A stretch of 64,000 nt of DNA from Microbacterium testaceum (GTDB lineage Bacteria; Actinomycetota; Actinomycetes; Actinomycetales; Microbacteriaceae), in the NCBI RefSeq assembly GCF_003075375.1, contig NZ_QDFT01000013.1, forward strand, positions 1 to 64,000, written 5' to 3'. The translations under genes and the position numbers were made by a program. The notes below the pieces were generated by a model. The model made no database searches. It saw only the letters and a program-made list of their open reading frames with translations, and was not told where the DNA came from. Shown here piece by piece: positions 1,600 to 9,726 of this stretch; within the stretch, counting starts at the first letter, position 1; each line of letters starts with the position of its first letter.

Positions 1600-2934
1600 A
1601 TGGCTGACGTCATGAACGCGACGCGCGCGTTGCTGCGCCTGTCGGTGCAGAGCGAGGGGCGTCGCCTCGACATCGCCATTCCCGCGCAGGTTCCCGTCAT
1701 CGAGTTCCTCCCCGGCTTCGCGCGGTCGCTCGGCGTCCTCGACGCGTCCATGACCTCCGCCGGATACGCGCTGCACCGCGCCGACGGCACGACCGTCGAC
1801 CCCTCACGCGGCGCATCCGCCCAGGGCATCGTCGACGGCGAAGTGCTCACGCTCGTGCGCGGCGGACTGGTCGCCCAGCCCCGGGTGTACGACGACATCG
1901 TCGAAGCGGTCATCGACGCGACCGCGCAGCAGAACCGCCCCTGGACGACACGCGACAACGCCCGCACCGCCCTGGCCGTCAGCCTCGCGCTGCTCGGCGT
2001 CTGCGCGGTGCTCCTGCTCGCCGCCGGTCGCGCCCTGCCCTTCGGCGCGCTCGTCGCCGGGGGCGGCGCCGTCGTGCTGCTCATCGTCTCGGCCGTCGTC
2101 GCCCGCCTCGGTCAGCGCGAAGCCGGCCAGGGCCTGGGGATCGCGGCATCCGTCTTCGCCGGTGTCGCGGGTTACCTCGCCGCACCGGTGGCCCTGCCGA
2201 TGTGGGGGTGGCCCATGGCCGCCGCGGGAGGCACCGCATTCGTCGTCGCGGGCATCGCGCTCGCGCTCTCCCGCGACCGCGCGGAACTGCAGCTCGCTCC
2301 GCTCGTCGCCGGTGGGGCGGTCGGCGTCGCGGGTACTCTCGCCGCCTTCTTCGACCCCGCCGCGGTCTGGACGCTGATGGTCGGCGTCGTCGCCACGCTC
2401 GGCGGAGCCCTGCCCTGGCTCGCGATCAGCACCACGCGGCTTCGCGTGGTGTCGCCGCAGAGCGACGCCGAGATGTTCGCCGACCCCGAGCCCATCGACG
2501 CCGACGACATCGCCGCCCGCGTCGCGCAGGGCAAGCGCATCCTCATCGCTCTGCGTCTGGCCCTCGCCGCCTCGGTACTGCTCGCCACCCCGCTGGTCGC
2601 CGCGCACAATGCGACCGGCGCGGTCCTGTGCGCCCTCGCCTTCGCCGGCATGATGTTCCCGTCCCGCCAGACCTTCGCCCGATCGGGTGTGCTGACCGTC
2701 ATGGCCACCGGCATCCTGGGACTCGTGGTCGCGGGCGTCGCCGTCTCGCTCGCGCAGCCGGGGCTGCGCGTGGGCATCCTGATCGTGCTCGCGGTCGCCA
2801 CCGTGAGCGTCGTGACCGTCACCCTGCTCGCCCCGAAGACCCGCCTGCGCCTGACCCGACTCGCCGACACGGCCGAGCTGCTCGTGCTGGCGTCGCTGCT
2901 CCCGCTGGCCGTGATCTCGTCCGGGCTGGCCTGA
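1600..2934 (+). CDS. eccD: Type VII secretion integral membrane protein EccD
   Basis: This 444-residue protein has a soluble N-terminal domain (about 1-95, YukD/ubiquitin-like, opening with hydrophobic beta strands) followed by roughly eleven hydrophobic segments from residue ~125 to the C terminus. That architecture is diagnostic of EccD, which forms the membrane vestibule of the ESX secretion pore. A short hydrophilic break (about 285-312, rich in Asp/Glu) lies between two membrane bundles, as in the family. The ATG at 1600 follows AAGAGGGGG. It is followed one base after its stop by eccB, and the two surely form one transcript. Confidence 0.92.
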   Translation: MADVMNATRALLRLSVQSEGRRLDIAIPAQVPVIEFLPGFARSLGVLDASMTSAGYALHRADGTTVDPSRGASAQGIVDGEVLTLVRGGLVAQPRVYDDIVEAVIDATAQQNRPWTTRDNARTALAVSLALLGVCAVLLLAAGRALPFGALVAGGGAVVLLIVSAVVARLGQREAGQGLGIAASVFAGVAGYLAAPVALPMWGWPMAAAGGTAFVVAGIALALSRDRAELQLAPLVAGGAVGVAGTLAAFFDPAAVWTLMVGVVATLGGALPWLAISTTRLRVVSPQSDAEMFADPEPIDADDIAARVAQGKRILIALRLALAASVLLATPLVAAHNATGAVLCALAFAGMMFPSRQTFARSGVLTVMATGILGLVVAGVAVSLAQPGLRVGILIVLAVATVSVVTVTLLAPKTRLRLTRLADTAELLVLASLLPLAVISSGLA

Positions 2935-2935
2935 C

Positions 2936-4264
2936 GTGGCCACCAAGGGGGATCTGATCGAGGCGCAGAACTTCTCGCGCCGACGCCTGCTCACCGCCTT
3001 CGTCAGCGGCGCCCCCGGCGGCAAAGAGCTGCAGCCCGCGTCTCCCCTGCGCGCCGTGATCGCCGCGATTTCGCTGTCGGTGCTCGTCGTCCTGGTCGGA
3101 GTGTTCTACGGGCTGATCCGTCCCGGGCTTCCGACCGGGTGGGAGAACGGCAAGCTCGTCCTCGTGTCCGACACGGGCGCCCGATTCGTCACCGTGGACG
3201 GCGTGCTGCACCCGGTGATCAACACCGCCAGCGCCCGCCTGCTGCTGCCGGCCAACGACTACGCCGTCATCTCGACCGATCAGGCCACCCTCGAGGGCAC
3301 GCCCGTCGGCGAGACGCTCGGGATCACCGGCGCCCCCGACGAGCTGCCGCCCGCATCGGGGCTGCTCAACACCGGCTGGAGCGCGTGCGTCAGCGACGAC
3401 AGCGGCATCGACGTGCGCATCTCGGCCGCGGCGGGCCCCGCACCCGCGACCGATCGGGCCGTCGTCGTGTCGGTCGACGGCATCCTGCACGTCGTGCAGG
3501 GCGACCGCAGTTTCGCGGTCTCGAGCGAAGACGCGGATGCCGTGCTGCGCGCCGCGGGCATCTCGTCGCTCTCGCCCCTCACCGTCCCCGCGGCGTGGCT
3601 CGACCTCTTCACCTCCGGTACCGCGCTCACCCCCATCACCCTGCAGAACTACGGGCAGGATGTCGCCGGCACGTCGCTGCGCGTCGGACAGGTCGTTCGC
3701 CAGGCCGGCGCCGCAGACGACGAGCGCTTCCTCGTGCAGACCGGCGGTGTGCTCGAAGCCCTCTCGCCGCTCGCGTGGCAGCTGTACCAGCTCGGCAGCG
3801 GCAGCGCCCTGGGCGGACAGGTGACCGAGGTCACCGCCGACGAGATCCGCAGTCTGCCCACCGCTGCCCAAGGACTCGGCGACGACTGGCCGCGCGTCGG
3901 TTTCGAGACCGTCGCGGCGGGCCAGCGCCCCTGCGCGGTGCTGCAACCGGGCGAGGGCCAGGCCGTCACCGCGCTGGCCACCCAGCCCAGCGCGACCGCC
4001 GTCGCCGCGGGCGTGCGCGTCGACCCCAGCCACGGTGCGCTCGTGCGCGCGGGCGGGCGCGGCGATCAGAGCGCCAGCGTGCTGACCCTGGTGGATGCCA
4101 CCGGCACCGCGTTCCCCCTCCCCGGCGCGACCGACGAGACCGTCGCCCGCCTGGGGTACGGCACCGGTGACGTCGGGGCGATCGCGGACGGCTGGACCGC
4201 GCTGCTGGCCACCGGCCCCTCCCTGAGCGAGAGCGCCGCCCAGCGCACGCCGGAGGCGAAGTGA
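2936..4264 (+). CDS. eccB: Type VII secretion protein EccB
   Basis: The 442-residue product begins with a short cytoplasmic segment (E-A-Q-N-F-S-R-R-R-L near residue 10, typical of EccB), one membrane helix at about 41-62, and a large extracytoplasmic domain. That layout is known for EccB, the periplasmic/cell-wall part of the ESX complex. Two cysteines (in SACVSD and RPCAVL) may form the family's disulfide. The GTG start at 2936 is one base after the eccD stop. The 3' end overlaps mycP by four bases (GTGA). No alternative family fits. Confidence 0.92.
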   Translation: MATKGDLIEAQNFSRRRLLTAFVSGAPGGKELQPASPLRAVIAAISLSVLVVLVGVFYGLIRPGLPTGWENGKLVLVSDTGARFVTVDGVLHPVINTASARLLLPANDYAVISTDQATLEGTPVGETLGITGAPDELPPASGLLNTGWSACVSDDSGIDVRISAAAGPAPATDRAVVVSVDGILHVVQGDRSFAVSSEDADAVLRAAGISSLSPLTVPAAWLDLFTSGTALTPITLQNYGQDVAGTSLRVGQVVRQAGAADDERFLVQTGGVLEALSPLAWQLYQLGSGSALGGQVTEVTADEIRSLPTAAQGLGDDWPRVGFETVAAGQRPCAVLQPGEGQAVTALATQPSATAVAAGVRVDPSHGALVRAGGRGDQSASVLTLVDATGTAFPLPGATDETVARLGYGTGDVGAIADGWTALLATGPSLSESAAQRTPEAK

Positions 4265-5577
4265 CCGCTTTCTCGCGGGCCGCGGCGGTGCTCGTCGCGG
4301 TCGGCGTCGGGCTGGCGGCGACGCCGCTCCCCGCCGAGGCGGTGGGGCCGGCATCCGGGATCCGCTCCGCGACGAACGAGCAGTGCACGGCCGACACGAA
4401 AGTGACCCAGACCCCGCCCGCGCTCGAGACGCTGCAGAGCGACGCGGCGTGGGCCCTCACCCGCGGGGCGGGGGTGACCGTCGCCGTCGTCGACTCCGGG
4501 ATCGCGGCGAACCCGCACCTGGACGCGGTCGTGGTGCCCGGAGTCAACCTGGTGCCCGACGGCACCGACGGCTCGGGACGCACCGACCAATACGGCCACG
4601 GCACCGTCATCGCCGGGCAGATCGCCGCCCAGACGATCGCCGGCTCCGGCGTTCAGGGACTCGCCCCGGCGGCGAAGATCCTGCCGATCCGCGTCTACGC
4701 GGGCGTGTCCGACCAGGTGCGCGAGGCCGGGTTCGGACCGAGTACCGCGCGGATGGCCGAGGGGATCCGCGCCGCCGCCGACCGCGGGGCGCAGATCATC
4801 AACGTCTCGATGAGCACAACAGAGAAGAACGGCGCCCTCGCCGACGCCGTCGCCTACGCCGCCGAGCGCGGCAGTCTCGTCGTCGCCAGCGCGGGCAACC
4901 GCGACTCCGACGCCGCCGTCGAGATCGACGAGAACGACGGGCCGCGTTACCCGGCCGGGTTCTCGGGCGCGATCGGTGTCGCCGCGACCGGCACCGAGGG
5001 CACAGTGACCCAGGCCAGCATCCACGGCACGCACGTGCGCCTGGCCGCGCCGGGTCAGCAGATCGCCTCGACCTGGCCGCTGGGCGGGGACTGCGTCGTC
5101 GCGGCGAACGAACCCGCCACCAGCTACGCGGCGGCCTACGTCTCCGCAGCGGCGGCTCTGGTGGCATCCGCTCATCCTGACGAGACTCCCGCGCAGTGGG
5201 CGTACCGGCTCGAGGCGACCGCCGTGCGCGCGCAGCCGGACGCGCGCTCGAACACCTCGGGCTGGGGCGTCGTGCAGCCCTACGATGCGATCGTGCTCGT
5301 CCCCGGGTCGGGACTGCGGGGCCCGCAGAGCCCCTTCGCGACCGGCACGCCCACCGCGACGCCGACGGCCACGCCCGGAGCCGTCGCCGTCGTGATCGGA
5401 CCGGGACCGGATGCCGAAACCATCCTCACCGCGACCGGCATCGGTCTCGCGGGTCTCGTGGCGCTGGGTGGGATCGGCGTCCTCGCCGTGTACGTCAGCC
5501 GCCGGCGCGAAGAGACGTCGCCGCGACGCCAGCCGCCGCCGGGGCGCGGGCTGTACGGACGCGAAGCGGGCGAGTAG
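4261..5577 (+). CDS. mycP: Mycosin, type VII secretion-associated subtilisin-like serine protease
   Basis: A 438-residue S8 protease. Signal peptide at about 1-27 (cut near AEA), catalytic Asp78 in VVDSG, His113 in YGHGT, Ser288 in the block A-T-S-Y-A-A-A, a Pro/Thr-rich linker, then one C-terminal membrane helix (about 385-408) and a basic tail. This is the mycosin layout: a membrane-anchored extracellular protease required for ESX complex stability. The usual Gly before Thr-Ser at the active site is Ala here, a modest deviation. It starts at the GTG overlapping the eccB stop. No EccE or EccC follows, so those, if present, lie upstream of the window. Confidence 0.93.
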   Translation: MTAFSRAAAVLVAVGVGLAATPLPAEAVGPASGIRSATNEQCTADTKVTQTPPALETLQSDAAWALTRGAGVTVAVVDSGIAANPHLDAVVVPGVNLVPDGTDGSGRTDQYGHGTVIAGQIAAQTIAGSGVQGLAPAAKILPIRVYAGVSDQVREAGFGPSTARMAEGIRAAADRGAQIINVSMSTTEKNGALADAVAYAAERGSLVVASAGNRDSDAAVEIDENDGPRYPAGFSGAIGVAATGTEGTVTQASIHGTHVRLAAPGQQIASTWPLGGDCVVAANEPATSYAAAYVSAAAALVASAHPDETPAQWAYRLEATAVRAQPDARSNTSGWGVVQPYDAIVLVPGSGLRGPQSPFATGTPTATPTATPGAVAVVIGPGPDAETILTATGIGLAGLVALGGIGVLAVYVSRRREETSPRRQPPPGRGLYGREAGE

Positions 5578-5686
5578 CGCGGGCGGGCGCTCGCGCGGGT
5601 CCTGTCGCACAGGCACGTAAGCGCACGGGGGGCGGTCGCGCGGGGGTAGGCGCAGGCGTAGGTGCGGGCGCGGGCGCGGGCGCGGC

Positions 5687-5755
5687 GAGACTGCACGTGG
5701 CTGACAACTCGGTGACATCCTGCAACCGAGTTGTCAGCGAGACGCTGTTTCGCGG
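5687..5755. repeat. 69-bp palindromic repeat, copy 1
   Basis: The unit starts GAGACTGCACGT and ends in CGCGG. Its core is CTGACAACTCGG (5701-5712), a 13-nt loop, then CCGAGTTGTCAG (5726-5737): a perfect 12-bp stem. Copies 2 and 3 lie 182 and 343 bp further on and differ at only a few positions. Confidence 0.9.
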
Positions 5756-5868
5756 CTCGCGGCGCCGACGGGCGAGCGGCACGCCGCAACCGGTGTGGCG
5801 GCGGGTGAGTGCGGGCGTGAGAGCGGGCGCAGCGCGACTGCGGCGCGGCTGCGGCGCGCAGGCGTCCC

Positions 5869-5937
5869 GAGACTGCACGTGGCTGACAACTCGGCGACAT
5901 CCTGCAACCGACTTGTCAGCGAGATGCCGTCTCGCGG
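5869..5937. repeat. 69-bp palindromic repeat, copy 2
   Basis: Same unit and orientation as copy 1. The right arm has a single change (CCGACTTGTCAG), which breaks one base pair of the 12-bp stem. The loop TGACATCCTGCAA is conserved except for its first base. Confidence 0.9.
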
Positions 5938-6029
5938 GCCGGCGGCGCGGGCCGGCGGCGCGGGCCAGCGCCGCCCGGGCCGAAAGGAGGGCGCGGGCGG
6001 GCAGCGTGGGCGCGGGCCATGGGCGAAGC

Positions 6030-6098
6030 GAGACTGCACGTCGCTGACAACTCGGCGACATCCTGCAACCGAGTTGTCAGGGAGACACCGTCTCGCGG
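6030..6098. repeat. 69-bp palindromic repeat, copy 3
   Basis: Same unit and orientation. The 12-bp arms are perfect again, and differences from copy 1 fall mostly outside the stem (GTCGC for GTGGC, GGAGACACC for CGAGACGCT). Confidence 0.9.
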
Positions 6099-6212
6099 GC
6101 TGGGGCGCGGGCGGACGACCGTGCGCCGCGGCGCAGGAGAGCGAGCGCGCACCGCGGCGGCGCACGGCGACGCGCACAGCGCCGCGGGTCGCGACGCGCG
6201 CAGCGCCGCGGC

Positions 6213-7841
6213 TCAGGACGAGGCGGCGGGCCGCAGCTCGAGGTGCGCGTCGCCGAGGCGGAACCGGCCCGGGGCGACCGCCGTCGATCCCGCGGCGATG
6301 CGTTCGGTCCGACCGTCGTCGTGGACGAGCGTGACGCCGTTGGTGGAGTCGAGGTCGGTCACCGTCCAGCCCGTGACGGTCCACTCCAGCCGCGCATGCT
6401 GCTTGGAGACCGTCCGCGTGTGGTCGGCGATCGGGACCGCCTGCACCGACTCATCGGAGGCGACGGGCTTTCGCCCGAGCAGGACCGCACGGCTCGTCAG
6501 GGGCACGCGGGTGCCGTCGGGAAGATCGAGCGTCCACTCCCCGCGGCGCCGGGAACGGGGGCGAACGGTCTGCGTCTGCTCCTCGACCGGCGCCGCGGAC
6601 TCGCCCGCTCCTGCGCCGGCGGTGGTGTCTGTGGAGTCGGTGGTCTCGTCGACCCGATCGGTGGTGGGGGTGGGCGTCGCCGCCGCGGCGTCAATAGGAC
6701 GCTGCGTCATCGCGGGGGTGCCGTGCGTGTCGGCGGATGCCGCCGGCTCGACGGGCGCTGACCGCTCGGCGGATGCCGCCGGCCCGACGGGCGCCGCCGG
6801 CTCGACGGGCGCGGACGGCTCGGCGGATGCTGTCGGCCCGACGGGCGCGGACGGCTCGACGGATGCTGTCGGCCCGACGGGCGCGGAGGGCTCGACGGGC
6901 GCTGCCGGTTCGACGGATGTCGCCGGCTCGACGGATGCCGTCGGCTGGGCGGGCGCCGTCTGGGGTGTCCGGCGCAGTGAGGTGGCCTCGAGGTCGGCGG
7001 AGAGTTCCGTCGCCGCGGTCCGCGGCGAGCGCCGTGTGGGGACGTCCGCGCCCTCCGGAACAGGAGGCGACGCGGCTGCCGACGCCGGAGCGGTCTGCGG
7101 CGTCCGGCGCAGCGAAGTGTTCTCGAGGTCGGCGGGGAGCTCGGCGGCGGCCGGCGATGGCGCACGGCGCACCGACGTGCTGTCGACATCGGCAGGAAGG
7201 CCCGCCGACGGCGCCCGTCCCACCGACGGCACTGCGGCGGCCGTCGCGTCCTCGGAGGGCGCATCCTCGGAGGGCGCGTCCTCAGCCGCGGGGCGGGCGG
7301 GCACGATCTCGACCGGCCCGGGAAGGACGACGGGTGCGGGCGCGACGACGGGCTCGGCGGACGCCGCACGCACCCCGGCGGCAGCCGCGACCGTGCCGGG
7401 CACAGCCGTGATCGGACCCGCGGGCGCGGGGGGCGCGGACACCTCGGAACGCCGCTGCGGTCCGGGCGCGGGGAGCTCGGCATCCGTCCCCCTCTCGGGA
7501 GCGCCCAGGACCTGCGCCCACACCGGGGGGAACAGCAGCGCGAGGGCGGTGGTGCCGGCGCCGCGCCCCACGGCCGTCCCCAGACGATGAGCGGCACGCG
7601 CCTTGAGCACGAGGGCGTAGATGTTCACGACCGGTATGACCAGCAGCACCGCACGCACGGGGTCGATGCCGCCCAGCCGGAAGATCTCGGCGTCGTTCAC
7701 GAGCGGCACCCAAGCGCGCCACCGCTCGGCTCCCCGCGCATCGAACACGCGTGACAGGCCGATGGCGTACCAGACGTGCAGCGCGAGCGCGGGCACGAGC
7801 AGGGCGGCGGCGATCGCGGCGATCAGGCTCAGAACCAGCAT
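6213..7841 (-). CDS. Membrane protein with Pro/Ala-rich linker and C-terminal FHA domain
   Basis: 542 residues from the ATG at 7841, preceded by GGAGGACGC. The N-terminal ~112 residues hold three hydrophobic segments with a W-R-A-W-V-P-L-V-N motif, resembling the DUF5684-type membrane domain. Residues ~113-430 are a disordered Pro/Ala/Glu/Thr linker. Residues ~435-540 form a forkhead-associated domain with the GR (456-457), SKQHAR (479-484) and STNG (499-502) signatures of a phosphothreonine-binding site. The linker contains three copies of a D-[VL]-[DE]-x-T-S-[VL]-R-R motif (218-226, 238-246, 283-291). These resemble the phosphorylated ETTSVFR motif of GarA, so the protein may be a kinase target that binds its own linker. 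It converges on the T7SS genes; a link to them is only positional. Confidence 0.85.
   Translation of the reverse strand: MLVLSLIAAIAAALLVPALALHVWYAIGLSRVFDARGAERWRAWVPLVNDAEIFRLGGIDPVRAVLLVIPVVNIYALVLKARAAHRLGTAVGRGAGTTALALLFPPVWAQVLGAPERGTDAELPAPGPQRRSEVSAPPAPAGPITAVPGTVAAAAGVRAASAEPVVAPAPVVLPGPVEIVPARPAAEDAPSEDAPSEDATAAAVPSVGRAPSAGLPADVDSTSVRRAPSPAAAELPADLENTSLRRTPQTAPASAAASPPVPEGADVPTRRSPRTAATELSADLEATSLRRTPQTAPAQPTASVEPATSVEPAAPVEPSAPVGPTASVEPSAPVGPTASAEPSAPVEPAAPVGPAASAERSAPVEPAASADTHGTPAMTQRPIDAAAATPTPTTDRVDETTDSTDTTAGAGAGESAAPVEEQTQTVRPRSRRRGEWTLDLPDGTRVPLTSRAVLLGRKPVASDESVQAVPIADHTRTVSKQHARLEWTVTGWTVTDLDSTNGVTLVHDDGRTERIAAGSTAVAPGRFRLGDAHLELRPAASS
6732..6941 (-). repeat. In-frame tandem repeat coding for a Pro/Ala/Glu linker
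   Basis: Degenerate ~36-bp units encode repeats of the type S-A-P-V-G-P-T-A-S-V-E-P, at residues about 301-370 of the FHA protein. The units keep the reading frame and are expected to vary in number between strains. Confidence 0.75.
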
Positions 7842-7869: not shown

Positions 7870-8112
7870 CTACCGTGCGTCGCCGTTCGGCGCGGCCCCT
7901 GTGGATCGGATGCCCCCGCGTTCGAGCAGACGCGATATCGCCGAGGGCGGCAGCCACGCCGGCTCGGCCACGTCGACCCGGCGCGCGGGACACGACGTGC
8001 ACCGGACGTATCGCACGCGACCCTCGCTCGTGACATGCGACGACTCCGTGATCCACGCGTGCTCGTGGACGGATGCCGCTCCGGCGGCGAGGACGAGGCG
8101 TGGGGCGGTCAT
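7870..8112 (-). CDS. Small conserved protein with a CxxC motif, function unknown
   Basis: An 80-residue product from the ATG at 8112. The middle reads like a compact beta domain ending in V-R-C-T-S-C-P-A-R-R, a CxxC knuckle, after a segment H-E-H-A-W-I-T-E-S-S-H. It has the look of a small actinobacterial protein made of a single Cys/His-containing sheet, but I cannot name the family. The 5' end overlaps the divergently read zinc-finger remnant at 8073. Its stop lies 28 bp from the start of the FHA gene on the same strand, so both may share a transcript. Confidence 0.6.
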   Translation of the reverse strand: MTAPRLVLAAGAASVHEHAWITESSHVTSEGRVRYVRCTSCPARRVDVAEPAWLPPSAISRLLERGGIRSTGAAPNGDAR

Positions 8113-8381
8113 GGACCCCGCGGTTGACGAAGCACGACGGCGAAGGATGGCACCTGCACTATCGCGACGGCGACGAGGAGCTCCCCCGCGTGCTCGCCGC
8201 GGTGATCTCGGTCGGCACCTCGCTGCACCTCGTCACCCGCGGCATGGACCGCCTGACCCGGTGCGCGGCGGAGCCGTGCACGCGGGTCGTGGTCGACGTC
8301 ACCCGCAACGGTCGGCAGCGCTACTGCTCGGTGCGCTGCGCCAACCGCGCCGCCGTGCGGCGTCACCGGGCGCGCGGCTGA
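8073..8381 (+). pseudogene. CGNR zinc-finger (ABATE-type) protein, N-terminally truncated
   Basis: The frame carries the C-terminal half of a CGNR zinc-finger regulator: the H-D-G-E-G-W-H-L-H-Y block of the ABATE domain, then RCAAEPC, and YCSVRCANRAAVRRHRAR. This gives the C-x4-C and C-x3-C ligands and the CANR variant of the CGNR signature. Normal members are about 180-200 residues. Here an in-frame TGA at 8049-8051 limits the product to at most ~102 (ATG 8073) or ~93 (GTG 8100) residues, and the first half would be overlapped by the opposite gene. I read it as a 5'-deleted remnant, though a short functional zinc-finger protein cannot be excluded. Confidence 0.55.
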
Positions 8382-8385
8382 GCCC

Positions 8386-8508
8386 TCAGACGTCGGGCGT
8401 GTGCAGCCGCGCCAGGTACCGGTCGACGCGCAGCGGTACGCCACCGCGATCGGCAAGCGACACCAGGACGATCACCGCGGTCGTCAGGGGGATGGTCCGC
8501 GCGGCCGG
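8386..8508 (-). pseudogene. Possible C-terminal remnant of a membrane transporter
   Basis: A 40-codon open stretch, closed by stops on both sides and without a start of its own, reads as one hydrophobic helix (L-T-T-A-V-I-V-L-V-S-L) followed by D-R-Y-L-A-R-L-H-T-P-D-V. This looks like the last helix and cytoplasmic tail of a solute symporter. The fragment is too short to assign. It sits between the truncated CGNR gene and a GNAT gene, consistent with local decay. Confidence 0.25.
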
Positions 8509-8513
8509 TCACG

Positions 8514-9011
8514 TCAGAGCGGCATGCCGAAGACGTGACGCACGGTGCCGCCGCCGAGGTCATCGGCGATGCGCCGCATGCCGAGGTTCACGGCGACCCG
8601 TTGCGAGGCGATGTTGTCGGGGTGAGTGATCGCGACCAGTTCGTCACTGATGGCGTGGTCGCGGGCGAAGTCGCGGCAGGCGGCGGCGGCCTCGGTCGCC
8701 AGCCCCCGGCCCTGGTGCAGCGGGACGACGTGGTAGCCCACCTCGAGCCTGCGCACCCCGTTCACCCGCTGCCAGGTGAGTCCGCAGTCGCCGACGAACT
8801 CGCCGACGTGGGTCTCGATGATCCAGAGACCAAAGCCGTGTTCGGCGTAATTGGCCTCGTTCCAGCGGATCCAGCGGTCCGCGTCCTCGCGGCTCTTCGG
8901 CGCGGGGTAGAACGTCATCACCACGGGGTCGCCGAGAAGAGCGGCCATCGCGTCGAGGTCGTCGCCGCTCATCTCGCGGAACCGGAGTCGATCGGTGGGC
9001 GGCGGCGGCAT
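8514..9011 (-). CDS. GNAT N-acetyltransferase, RimJ/RimL type
   Basis: 165 residues from the ATG at 9011. It begins T-D-R-L-R-F-R-E-M and contains the segment G-D-C-G-L-T-W, then L-E-V-G-Y-H-V-V and the acetyl-CoA pyrophosphate-binding loop Q-G-R-G-L-A-T-E (motif A, [QR]xxGx[GA]). It ends with the A-S-Q-R-V-A-V-N-L-G-M helix. This is the GNAT acetyltransferase_3 (RimJ/RimL) pattern, with full family length. The substrate cannot be told from sequence. It is divergent from the HAD gene with 70 bp between starts. Confidence 0.85.
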   Translation of the reverse strand: MPPPPTDRLRFREMSGDDLDAMAALLGDPVVMTFYPAPKSREDADRWIRWNEANYAEHGFGLWIIETHVGEFVGDCGLTWQRVNGVRRLEVGYHVVPLHQGRGLATEAAAACRDFARDHAISDELVAITHPDNIASQRVAVNLGMRRIADDLGGGTVRHVFGMPL

Positions 9012-9081
9012 CCGGCCAGCGTAGCGAGGGTGCGTAGCGGCGCAATCGACCGCAGCTCCCATGCTCTGGGAGTCTGAACGT

Positions 9082-9726
9082 ATGAGGACCCACCCCTTCA
9101 CCGATGTGCGCAGCATCGTCTTCGATGTCGGAGAGACGCTCGTCGATGAGACACGGATGTGGTCCGAGCTCGCGGCAGCGGCGGGCGTCACCTCGTTCAC
9201 GCTCATGGCCGCTCTCGGCTCGCTCATCGAAAGGGGAGGGGACCACCGCGAAGTGTGGAGACTGCTGGGGGTGGAGAGGCCCGTTCTCGACGTACAGATC
9301 GACACGGTTGATCTGTATCCGGATGCCCTCGCCTGTCTAGCCGGCCTGCGGGATGCCGGTTTCCTCATCGGCGTGGCGGGGAATCAGCCGGAGGGGGTGG
9401 AGGTCCAGCTCCGCACGGCCGGATTCGCGCCGGACTTCATGGCGTCTTCGGCCGCCTGGGGCGTGTCCAAGCCCTCGTCTGCATTCTTCGCGCGGGTGAC
9501 TCTCGCAGCGGGAGTGCCCGCATCGGCGATCCTCTACGTCGGGGACCGCCTGGACAACGACGTGCTCCCCGCCCGCGCGGCCGGCATGCGAACAGCCTTG
9601 ATCCGCCGCGGGCCGTGGGCCGTCATCCAGAGCCGCTGCCCGGAGGCCGCGCTCGCGGATGTGACGGTCGACTCCCTCGATGAGCTGCAACGAGCGGTCG
9701 GGCTGTCGCGGACCGGGCTCTGCTGA
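9082..9726 (+). CDS. HAD-superfamily hydrolase
   Basis: 214 residues from the ATG at 9082, preferred over 9061 because GGGAG lies about 10 bases before it and the HAD fold begins directly after. Motif I is F-D-V-G-E-T-L with nucleophile Asp15; the usual second Asp is Gly, as in some phosphatase/dehalogenase-like HADs. Motif II lies around GVAGNQ, motif III is Lys in V-S-K-P, and motif IV is Y-V-G-D-R-L-D-N-D. A helical cap follows motif I. It is probably a small-molecule phosphatase. The gene ends 12 bp from the convergent sigma gene. Confidence 0.85.
   Translation: MRTHPFTDVRSIVFDVGETLVDETRMWSELAAAAGVTSFTLMAALGSLIERGGDHREVWRLLGVERPVLDVQIDTVDLYPDALACLAGLRDAGFLIGVAGNQPEGVEVQLRTAGFAPDFMASSAAWGVSKPSSAFFARVTLAAGVPASAILYVGDRLDNDVLPARAAGMRTALIRRGPWAVIQSRCPEAALADVTVDSLDELQRAVGLSRTGLC

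Follow-up and report, generated by a model that had tools for sequence, protein, structure and literature searches.

A membrane-anchored FHA protein with repeated candidate phosphothreonine sites at a type VII secretion locus of Microbacterium testaceum

Introduction

The ligand site of FHA domains is made up of an Arg, a Ser, a His and a Thr-Asn-Gly sequence, and to our knowledge few bacterial cases are known, mainly mycobacterial ones, of multi-site phosphothreonine stretches that are read by such domains. GarA is not known to have a membrane domain or a long linker.

GarA is phosphorylated in its ETTS motif and regulates TCA-cycle enzymes (PMC12321487). The regulatory region of Rv1747 undergoes a condensation that is promoted by PknF phosphorylation and reversed by PstP (reviewed in PMC9312465), while FhaA carries 23 phosphosites, and the PknA-dependent motif of M. 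tuberculosis favours acidic residues at -1 and -3 to -6, Leu or Val at +3 and a basic residue at +4 (PMC7164672). In bifidobacteria the PFNA cluster has the gene order pkb2-fn3-aaa-atp-duf58-tgm, to which some species add the phosphatase gene prpC, a hypothetical gene and, at the end, fha (PMC8430577).

The protein described here is encoded in a stretch of 64,000 nucleotides from M. testaceum (GCF_003075375.1, contig NZ_QDFT01000013.1, positions 1 to 64,000, forward strand), called the window below. A preliminary description made from the sequence reported an FHA protein with three GarA-like motifs in a linker and knew of no comparable arrangement; Rv1747 and FhaA are close precedents, as far as the two sources cited for them go. 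Set against GarA, Rv1747 and FhaA as these are described in the cited accounts, the protein would thus represent known chemistry in a new arrangement. Searches of the open-licence literature for DUF5684, for ETTSVFR with an FHA domain and for type VII secretion in Microbacterium with an FHA domain returned nothing, and no account of bacterial FHA arrays was found there among the papers listed, as judged by titles and the start of abstracts.

Domain organization of the FHA protein

The gene and its three parts are located as follows.

6213–7841, minus strand: DUF5684-linker-FHA protein, 542 aa, including the stop codon (translation and Pfam)
7500–7841, minus strand: DUF5684 membrane domain, residues 1–114 (Pfam and AlphaFold2)
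6537–7499, minus strand: disordered linker, residues 115–435 (AlphaFold2, without secondary structure and with low pLDDT; alignment)
6225–6536, minus strand: FHA domain, residues 436–539 (Pfam, ligand-site residues and Foldseek)

Residues 41–114 match DUF5684 (PF18936) with 29.2 bits, above the cut-off of 27.4, and residues 455–505 match FHA (PF00498) with 29.9 bits against a cut-off of 20.7. The AlphaFold2 model, based on an alignment of 19 rows, has no secondary structure in residues 117–430, where the means of ten-residue blocks lie between 36 and 56 pLDDT, and reaches mostly 90 or more in the FHA domain, with one block at 71. The preliminary description of an FHA protein with a membrane domain and a disordered linker is thereby borne out. 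Since phmmer gave no match between the FHA domain and PDB sequences, the fold was compared instead, and the Foldseek matches are mostly FHA domains, among others those of EmbR, MDC1, FhaA, OdhI, GarA, Rv1747 and DgcB, some of them solved with phosphopeptides. R457, S479, H482, T500, N501 and G502 are invariant in the 19 rows of the alignment (L041, a near-copy of L040, was omitted), and with the family cut-off passed and the ligand-site residues in place, the domain is a predicted reader of phosphothreonine.

The protein is neither GarA/OdhI (NF041660, 16.8 bits with a cut-off of 200) nor FhaB/FipA (Rv0019c), although the model of the latter is the best NCBIfam match (NF049868, 34.1 bits with a cut-off of 125). 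With GarA and OdhI it appears to share an acidic-Thr site N-terminal to the FHA domain (T423 in the window protein, found in 17 of 19 rows), and it differs from GarA in being anchored in the membrane with a linker of 320 residues. Rv1747, as reviewed, resembles it in general layout, as a membrane protein with FHA domains and a disordered linker; it combines an ABC transporter with two FHA domains, where the protein described here has DUF5684 and one FHA domain. FhaA and FhaB are comparable as actinobacterial FHA proteins, and separate FHA genes on contig C6 of the same genome, as read from their sequence, probably encode them.

Within the same linker an 18/54-nt tandem repeat at 6739–6958 encodes a Pro/Ala-rich hexapeptide array, the length of which varies relative to the closest orthologue.

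Repeated motifs in the linker

The motif D-[LV]-[DE]-x-T-S-[LV]-R-R is found at residues 218, 238 and 283, as was claimed, and in all three copies the Thr has an acidic residue at -2 and is followed by basic residues, so that the repeated linker sites of the preliminary description stand.

7164–7190, minus strand: site copy 1, DVDSTSVRR, residues 218–226
7104–7130, minus strand: site copy 2, DLENTSLRR, residues 238–246
7029–7052, minus strand: degenerate unit GADVPTRR, residues 264–271, kept in L031
6969–6995, minus strand: site copy 3, DLEATSLRR, residues 283–291
6949–7169, minus strand: internal duplication with copies 2 and 3, a direct repeat of 86 nt, spaced at 135 nt and 73% identical

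Chance can be set aside as the origin of the three motifs, for none of 200,000 linker shuffles gave even one strict copy. The DNA pattern encoding the motif occurs three times in the 3.36 Mb genome of the window, always within the FHA gene, and twice in G016, the closest relative, whose genome is 86% complete, there also inside the FHA gene; it is absent from the genomes of four other relatives, and the reversed pattern used as a control had no match in any of the six genomes scanned. Among the 331 stop-to-stop ORFs of at least 100 aa in the window, the FHA ORF is alone in having at least two acidic-x-T-[VILS]-[VIL]-...-basic sites. Since the direct repeat contains copies 2 and 3, the copy number is ascribed to internal duplication and not to repeated independent origin; further tandem repeats are present in the linker.

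Conservation among orthologues

Twenty loci with a lone FHA gene linked to type VII secretion system (T7SS) genes were compared, the linkage itself being the selection criterion, so that the orthologue class partly rests on it. Cut sequences (L011, L054, L055 and L059), loci without T7SS linkage (L061 and L062) and repeats of loci already included (L043, L044, L045, L051, L053 and L060) were left aside. Several copies of the motif are found in two of these orthologues, one copy in six and none in 12, and a general conservation of the motif is thereby rejected; its repetition is lineage-limited. The nearest orthologue, L031 from a metagenome-assembled Microbacterium (on the same contig as L043), has four copies, one of which ends with RG instead of RR while the first is without the leading Asp. 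The six proteins with one copy (L032, L033, L046, L047, L048 and L049, all but L032 from the M. testaceum branch) have a single E-x-T-S-[LI] site directly after an LPGPV[DE]I block.

Poor conservation among close orthologues had been named beforehand as grounds for giving up the idea of functional motifs, and in part it was observed, with several copies in just two of 20 orthologues and none in 12. The further expectation, that the motifs would be conserved in an otherwise variable linker, holds in so far as they have changed less than the other parts of the linker between the window and L031, but other sites are conserved more widely. In this pair the 27 motif codons have a dN/dS of 0.07 and the remaining linker one of 0.54, compared with 0.08 for residues 415–436, 0.19 for the FHA domain and 0.18 for the membrane domain. 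Of the motif residues 26 of 27 are kept, against 192 of 255 in the other linker, where 23 residues at gaps were excluded. Fisher's test gives p 0.013, and permutation gives p 0.023 across the linker and 0.082 within residues 200–310. The signal of selection on the copies thus appears modest and comes from one species pair, and it is suggestive, not strong.

The Thr is retained in every full copy of the window protein and L031. This, together with the recurrence of an acidic-x-Thr core in arrays adjacent to FHA genes (see below), argues against motifs that have nothing to do with phosphorylation and merely form a charged linker pattern or a docking site for a partner; their acidic and basic runs could bind by charge, but we regard this explanation as very improbable.

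Sites close to the FHA domain

Two further sites, both absent from the preliminary description, are located between the repeated motifs and the FHA domain.

6621–6656, minus strand: RVDETTDSTDTT site (ETTDxT), residues 396–407 (alignment)
6540–6584, minus strand: juxta-FHA site EEQTQTVRPRSRRRG, residues 420–434 (alignment and dN/dS)

E399, T400, T401, D402 and T404 of the former are kept as RVxETTDxT in 13 of 19 aligned rows and are absent from the short-linker forms, and L037 has a variant of it that is aligned elsewhere. The juxta-FHA site has the form [DE][DE]xTQTxRPRSRRRG or shorter, with residues 420 and 421 acidic in all 19 rows and Thr423 in 17, the two others having Pro (L040) and Glu (L049). 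Judged from the alignment, the DExTQT and ETTDxT sites are kept more widely than the three linker copies, and the label GarA-like, which had been given to the linker copies, fits these two sites better. The window genome also has a GarA/OdhI relative of its own, scoring 149 bits against a cut-off of 200 with the model matched from position 20, which carries DTTQTHD N-terminal to its FHA domain and, by eye, makes the label more suitable for the juxta-FHA site.

In L049, from M. testaceum StLB037 strain DE0422, the Glu in place of Thr423 is a possible phosphomimic, and the Gln-Thr that follows is kept.

These sites bring up the explanation that the juxta-FHA site, perhaps with ETTDxT, is alone the working phospho-switch of the GarA type, and that the linker copies have little function, having arisen incidentally as repeats expanded around a single older site. 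The far wider retention of the juxta-FHA site points that way, as do the position of copies 2 and 3 inside a DNA duplication with 135-nt spacing, the other tandem repeats in the linker, the variation between no, one and several copies across 20 orthologues, and the irregular copies of L031, ending with RG or without the leading Asp. We nevertheless consider it rather unlikely, since the motif residues are kept at 26 of 27 positions while the surrounding linker diverges, if only in one species pair, and relatives repeatedly have acidic-x-Thr arrays beside their FHA genes.

The type VII secretion locus

The FHA gene is convergent with three genes of a type VII secretion locus, of which the last has a clear subtilase domain.

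1600–2934, plus strand: EccD of type VII secretion (TIGR03920, over cut-off)
2936–4264, plus strand: EccB of type VII secretion (TIGR03919, over cut-off)
4261–5577, plus strand: mycosin-like subtilase, MycP (Peptidase_S8; TIGR03921 with 244 bits, below the cut-off of 279)

Relatives of the FHA protein are found in M. testaceum, M. hydrothermale, M. halimionae and Leifsonia, among others. Among the matches listed in the search of the genus, 30 loci comprise 13 where mycP adjoins the FHA gene, including that of the window, 16 paralogue loci and one cut locus. In a second set T7SS genes adjoin 9 of 14 non-duplicate loci, two of the nine being from Leifsonia. By its position beside mycP-eccB-eccD in relatives, the FHA gene is taken as a predicted member of the type VII secretion locus. 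The contig of the window genome (G000) begins near the eccD side, and the rest of the locus sits on another contig. None of the listed kinase positions falls inside the T7SS stretches examined in nine genomes, and a kinase encoded in the locus is therefore rejected. MoxR, DUF58 and TgpA were not found by query search in the window and seven other T7SS loci with a solo FHA gene, and the 20 lone-FHA loci have no ORF with three or more sites of the [DE]-T-[VIL]-[VIL] type.

The T7SS locus encodes another FHA protein, RDD-linker-FHA, next to a gene for an FtsK/SpoIIIE (EccC-like) ATPase.

L063, 11359–12657, minus strand: RDD-linker-FHA, RDD found by Pfam
L064, 10656–13019, minus strand: RDD-linker-FHA
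G000, contig C14, 67562–67798, minus strand: RDD-linker-FHA

Another explanation is that the linker sites are phosphorylated but are bound by other FHA proteins, for instance this one encoded at the opposite end of the secretion locus, which would tie two membrane proteins of the locus together. Its gene lies next to the ATPase gene in G072, where both RDD and FHA exceed their cut-offs; similar FHA proteins are seen in G007 and G000 (FHA over cut-off, and translations), and the window genome has six FHA domains in all. We hold a pairing of the linker sites with the RDD-FHA protein to be improbable.

Array proteins encoded beside related FHA genes

The window protein is matched in at least 137 of 149 genomes of the genus at E 0.001, a number that mixes orthologues, paralogues and partial matches. 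From the matches listed, 40 loci with a DUF5684-linker-FHA paralogue were picked by hand (L077, L078 and L097 belong to another branch). All 40 paralogues have a juxta-FHA site with an acidic residue at -2, the Thr, two aliphatic residues and then basic ones, a pattern drawn up from examples already inspected. Downstream of the FHA gene a tail-anchored ORF is located in 30 of the 40 loci, none being found in the other 10, and 28 of these 30 ORFs contain at least two acidic-x-Thr-...-basic sites, with a mean of 5.3 against 1.0 after shuffling (the ORF with most sites was taken where a locus had several that qualified). rpsL is found downstream in 29 of the 40. As a control with a stricter site, 2,921 ORFs of at least 100 aa in 54 loci were scanned, and at least two strict sites were present in 22. 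Of these ORFs 20, from as many loci, lie downstream of the FHA gene, two are the FHA gene itself and none is found elsewhere; the strict pattern is not reached in 34 of the 54 loci. Three array proteins scanned had no Pfam or NCBIfam family match. The window genome has such a paralogue on contig C82 (L067), followed by repeated DDDTVLS sites.

A family search of 120 genomes with a T7SS-linked Leifsonia protein as query found relatives in 15, including the window's own. An array ORF over the listed thresholds lies beside the FHA gene in 10 of the 14 others (L135–L140, L142, L144, L146 and L148), with weaker arrays in L141 and L145 and none seen for L143 and L147; the loose threshold also passed two FHA proteins and, in L147, an elongation-factor ORF. 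Of 13 sequences compared from these genera, 9 have an acidic residue at -2 in the juxta-FHA site, the exceptions being L140, L145, L147 and L148; in Leifsonia it stands at -1. Four of the 14 loci are T7SS-linked (L136, L137, L139 and L148, with L137 and L139 from the same genus). Together with two Leifsonia loci they make six T7SS-linked loci outside the window clade, and all six have the order MoxR, DUF58, TgpA, FHA and array, followed by mycP-eccB-eccD on the opposite strand. Their array genes encode D/E-x-T-[VIL]-[VIL] repeats, that of L148 falling short of the strictest pattern. Within Microbacterium, DUF58-TgpA-FHA-array faces mycP in L078 and mycP-eccB in L097.

In a tree rooted at the midpoint the 19 lone-FHA proteins tested form one clade (100/99). 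A larger group (100/97) joins this clade to the T7SS-linked proteins from other genera and to five further ones, and within it the side without the window has a support of 83/82; 6 of 75 rows were left out of the tree (L084, L092, L140, L141, L143 and L146). We suggest that the window gene may be the T7SS-side reader left from a locus of the MoxR-DUF58-TgpA-FHA-array type.

The paralogue locus L110 has genes for a kinase, an Ig-like protein, a MoxR AAA protein, DUF58, a TgpA transglutaminase, DUF5684-FHA, an array protein, ribosomal S12 and S7, and elongation factor G (the Ig-like, S12, S7 and elongation-factor-G genes were identified by reading the sequence). From the kinase to TgpA this is the order of the PFNA cluster as published, with the FHA genes matched by position; a place behind MoxR-DUF58-TgpA is thus found for the FHA gene of L110 and not for that of the window, which keeps just the FHA gene beside the T7SS, and an array gene is not named in the account of the PFNA cluster cited above. 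The window genome has a kinase gene that matches the one of the paralogue cluster. Gene order in this way ties a Ser/Thr-kinase gene cluster of the PFNA type, the function of which is unclear, to a type VII secretion locus.

An array-reader pairing was not found described among the papers listed in searches of the open-licence literature, and this recurring pairing is the more interesting part compared with the three linker copies. The repeated occurrence of an array protein next to an FHA reader suggests a shared candidate way of switching or clustering the reader.

Proposed mechanism

Our main reading, for which a probability of roughly 0.5 seems appropriate, is that the protein is a membrane-anchored phosphothreonine reader with its own linker seeded with extra kinase-acceptor sites. 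Most likely, to go by sequence and gene order, a kinase acts on the sites of linkers and arrays and the FHA domain then reads them, in cis for the window protein and in trans at other loci. A Ser/Thr kinase would phosphorylate Thr222, Thr242 and Thr287 in addition to the older ETTD and juxta-FHA sites, and the FHA domain of the same or a neighbouring molecule would bind the phosphorylated sites. The number of modified sites might then set the state of the reader as self-occupied, free or cross-linked in membrane clusters beside the type VII apparatus. At most of the related loci examined the job seems to be split between the DUF5684-FHA reader and the tail-anchored array protein downstream, whereas the window lineage has no array gene beside the reader and carries multiplied sites in cis, which could compensate for the missing gene. 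The idea of a multi-site phospho-reader, already put forward in the preliminary description, gains from these arrays of similar sites in the neighbouring protein of relatives and appears to be the likely theme.

The reading as phospho-sites draws on the acidic-x-T next to the FHA domain in 40 of 40 paralogues and T423 in 17 of 19 orthologues, on the low dN/dS of the motifs (0.07 against 0.54) and the single site kept in six further orthologues, on strict arrays being confined to ORFs downstream of FHA genes (20) or the FHA gene itself (2), and on the kinase in the paralogue gene cluster together with the invariant ligand-site residues and the fold of the FHA domain. Against it stand the difference between T-S-[LV]-R-R in the window and T-V-[LV]-S-x-R, the commonest form in arrays; the several copies in just two of 20 orthologues; the sampled T7SS stretches without a kinase gene; the 10 of 40 paralogue loci without a tail-anchored ORF; and the presence of strict arrays in just 20 of 54 loci. 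With acidic residues at -2 and -4, an aliphatic one at +2 and Arg at +3 and +4, the window motif fits the PknA-dependent motif, as given in PMC7164672, in part: it matches with the acidic -4 and the basic +4 and departs from it with Arg at +3 and the acidic -2.

More tentatively, and possible rather than probable, there may be a module of the Microbacteriaceae in which a kinase writes on a tail-anchored disordered array that is read by DUF5684-FHA, with the resulting clusters coupling a PFNA-type MoxR-DUF58-transglutaminase machine to the T7SS; the window protein would be array and reader in one chain. The relatives fall into a natural series, in which the sites form an array in trans, are single in cis, are multiplied in cis or are absent, which makes the effect of site number on clustering testable.

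Other features of the locus and its relatives

Between the convergent stop codons of the mycP and FHA genes, at 5678–6121, an element of 101 nt is present three times, two of the copies sharing 77% and 84% identity with the first. The elements contain inverted repeats around GACAACTCGG...CCGAGTTGTC and resemble a cluster of REP-type palindromes. A 102-aa ORF at 8073–8378 on the plus strand has a CGNR zinc finger (PF11706, 56 bits) preceded by about 60 residues. In L062, which is not T7SS-linked, an ORF on the plus strand (8002–9339) combines a kinase-like region, in which HGR replaces HRD, with array sites fused behind it; the kinase-like region has no Pfam match and a weak NCBIfam match, and is a possible pseudokinase.
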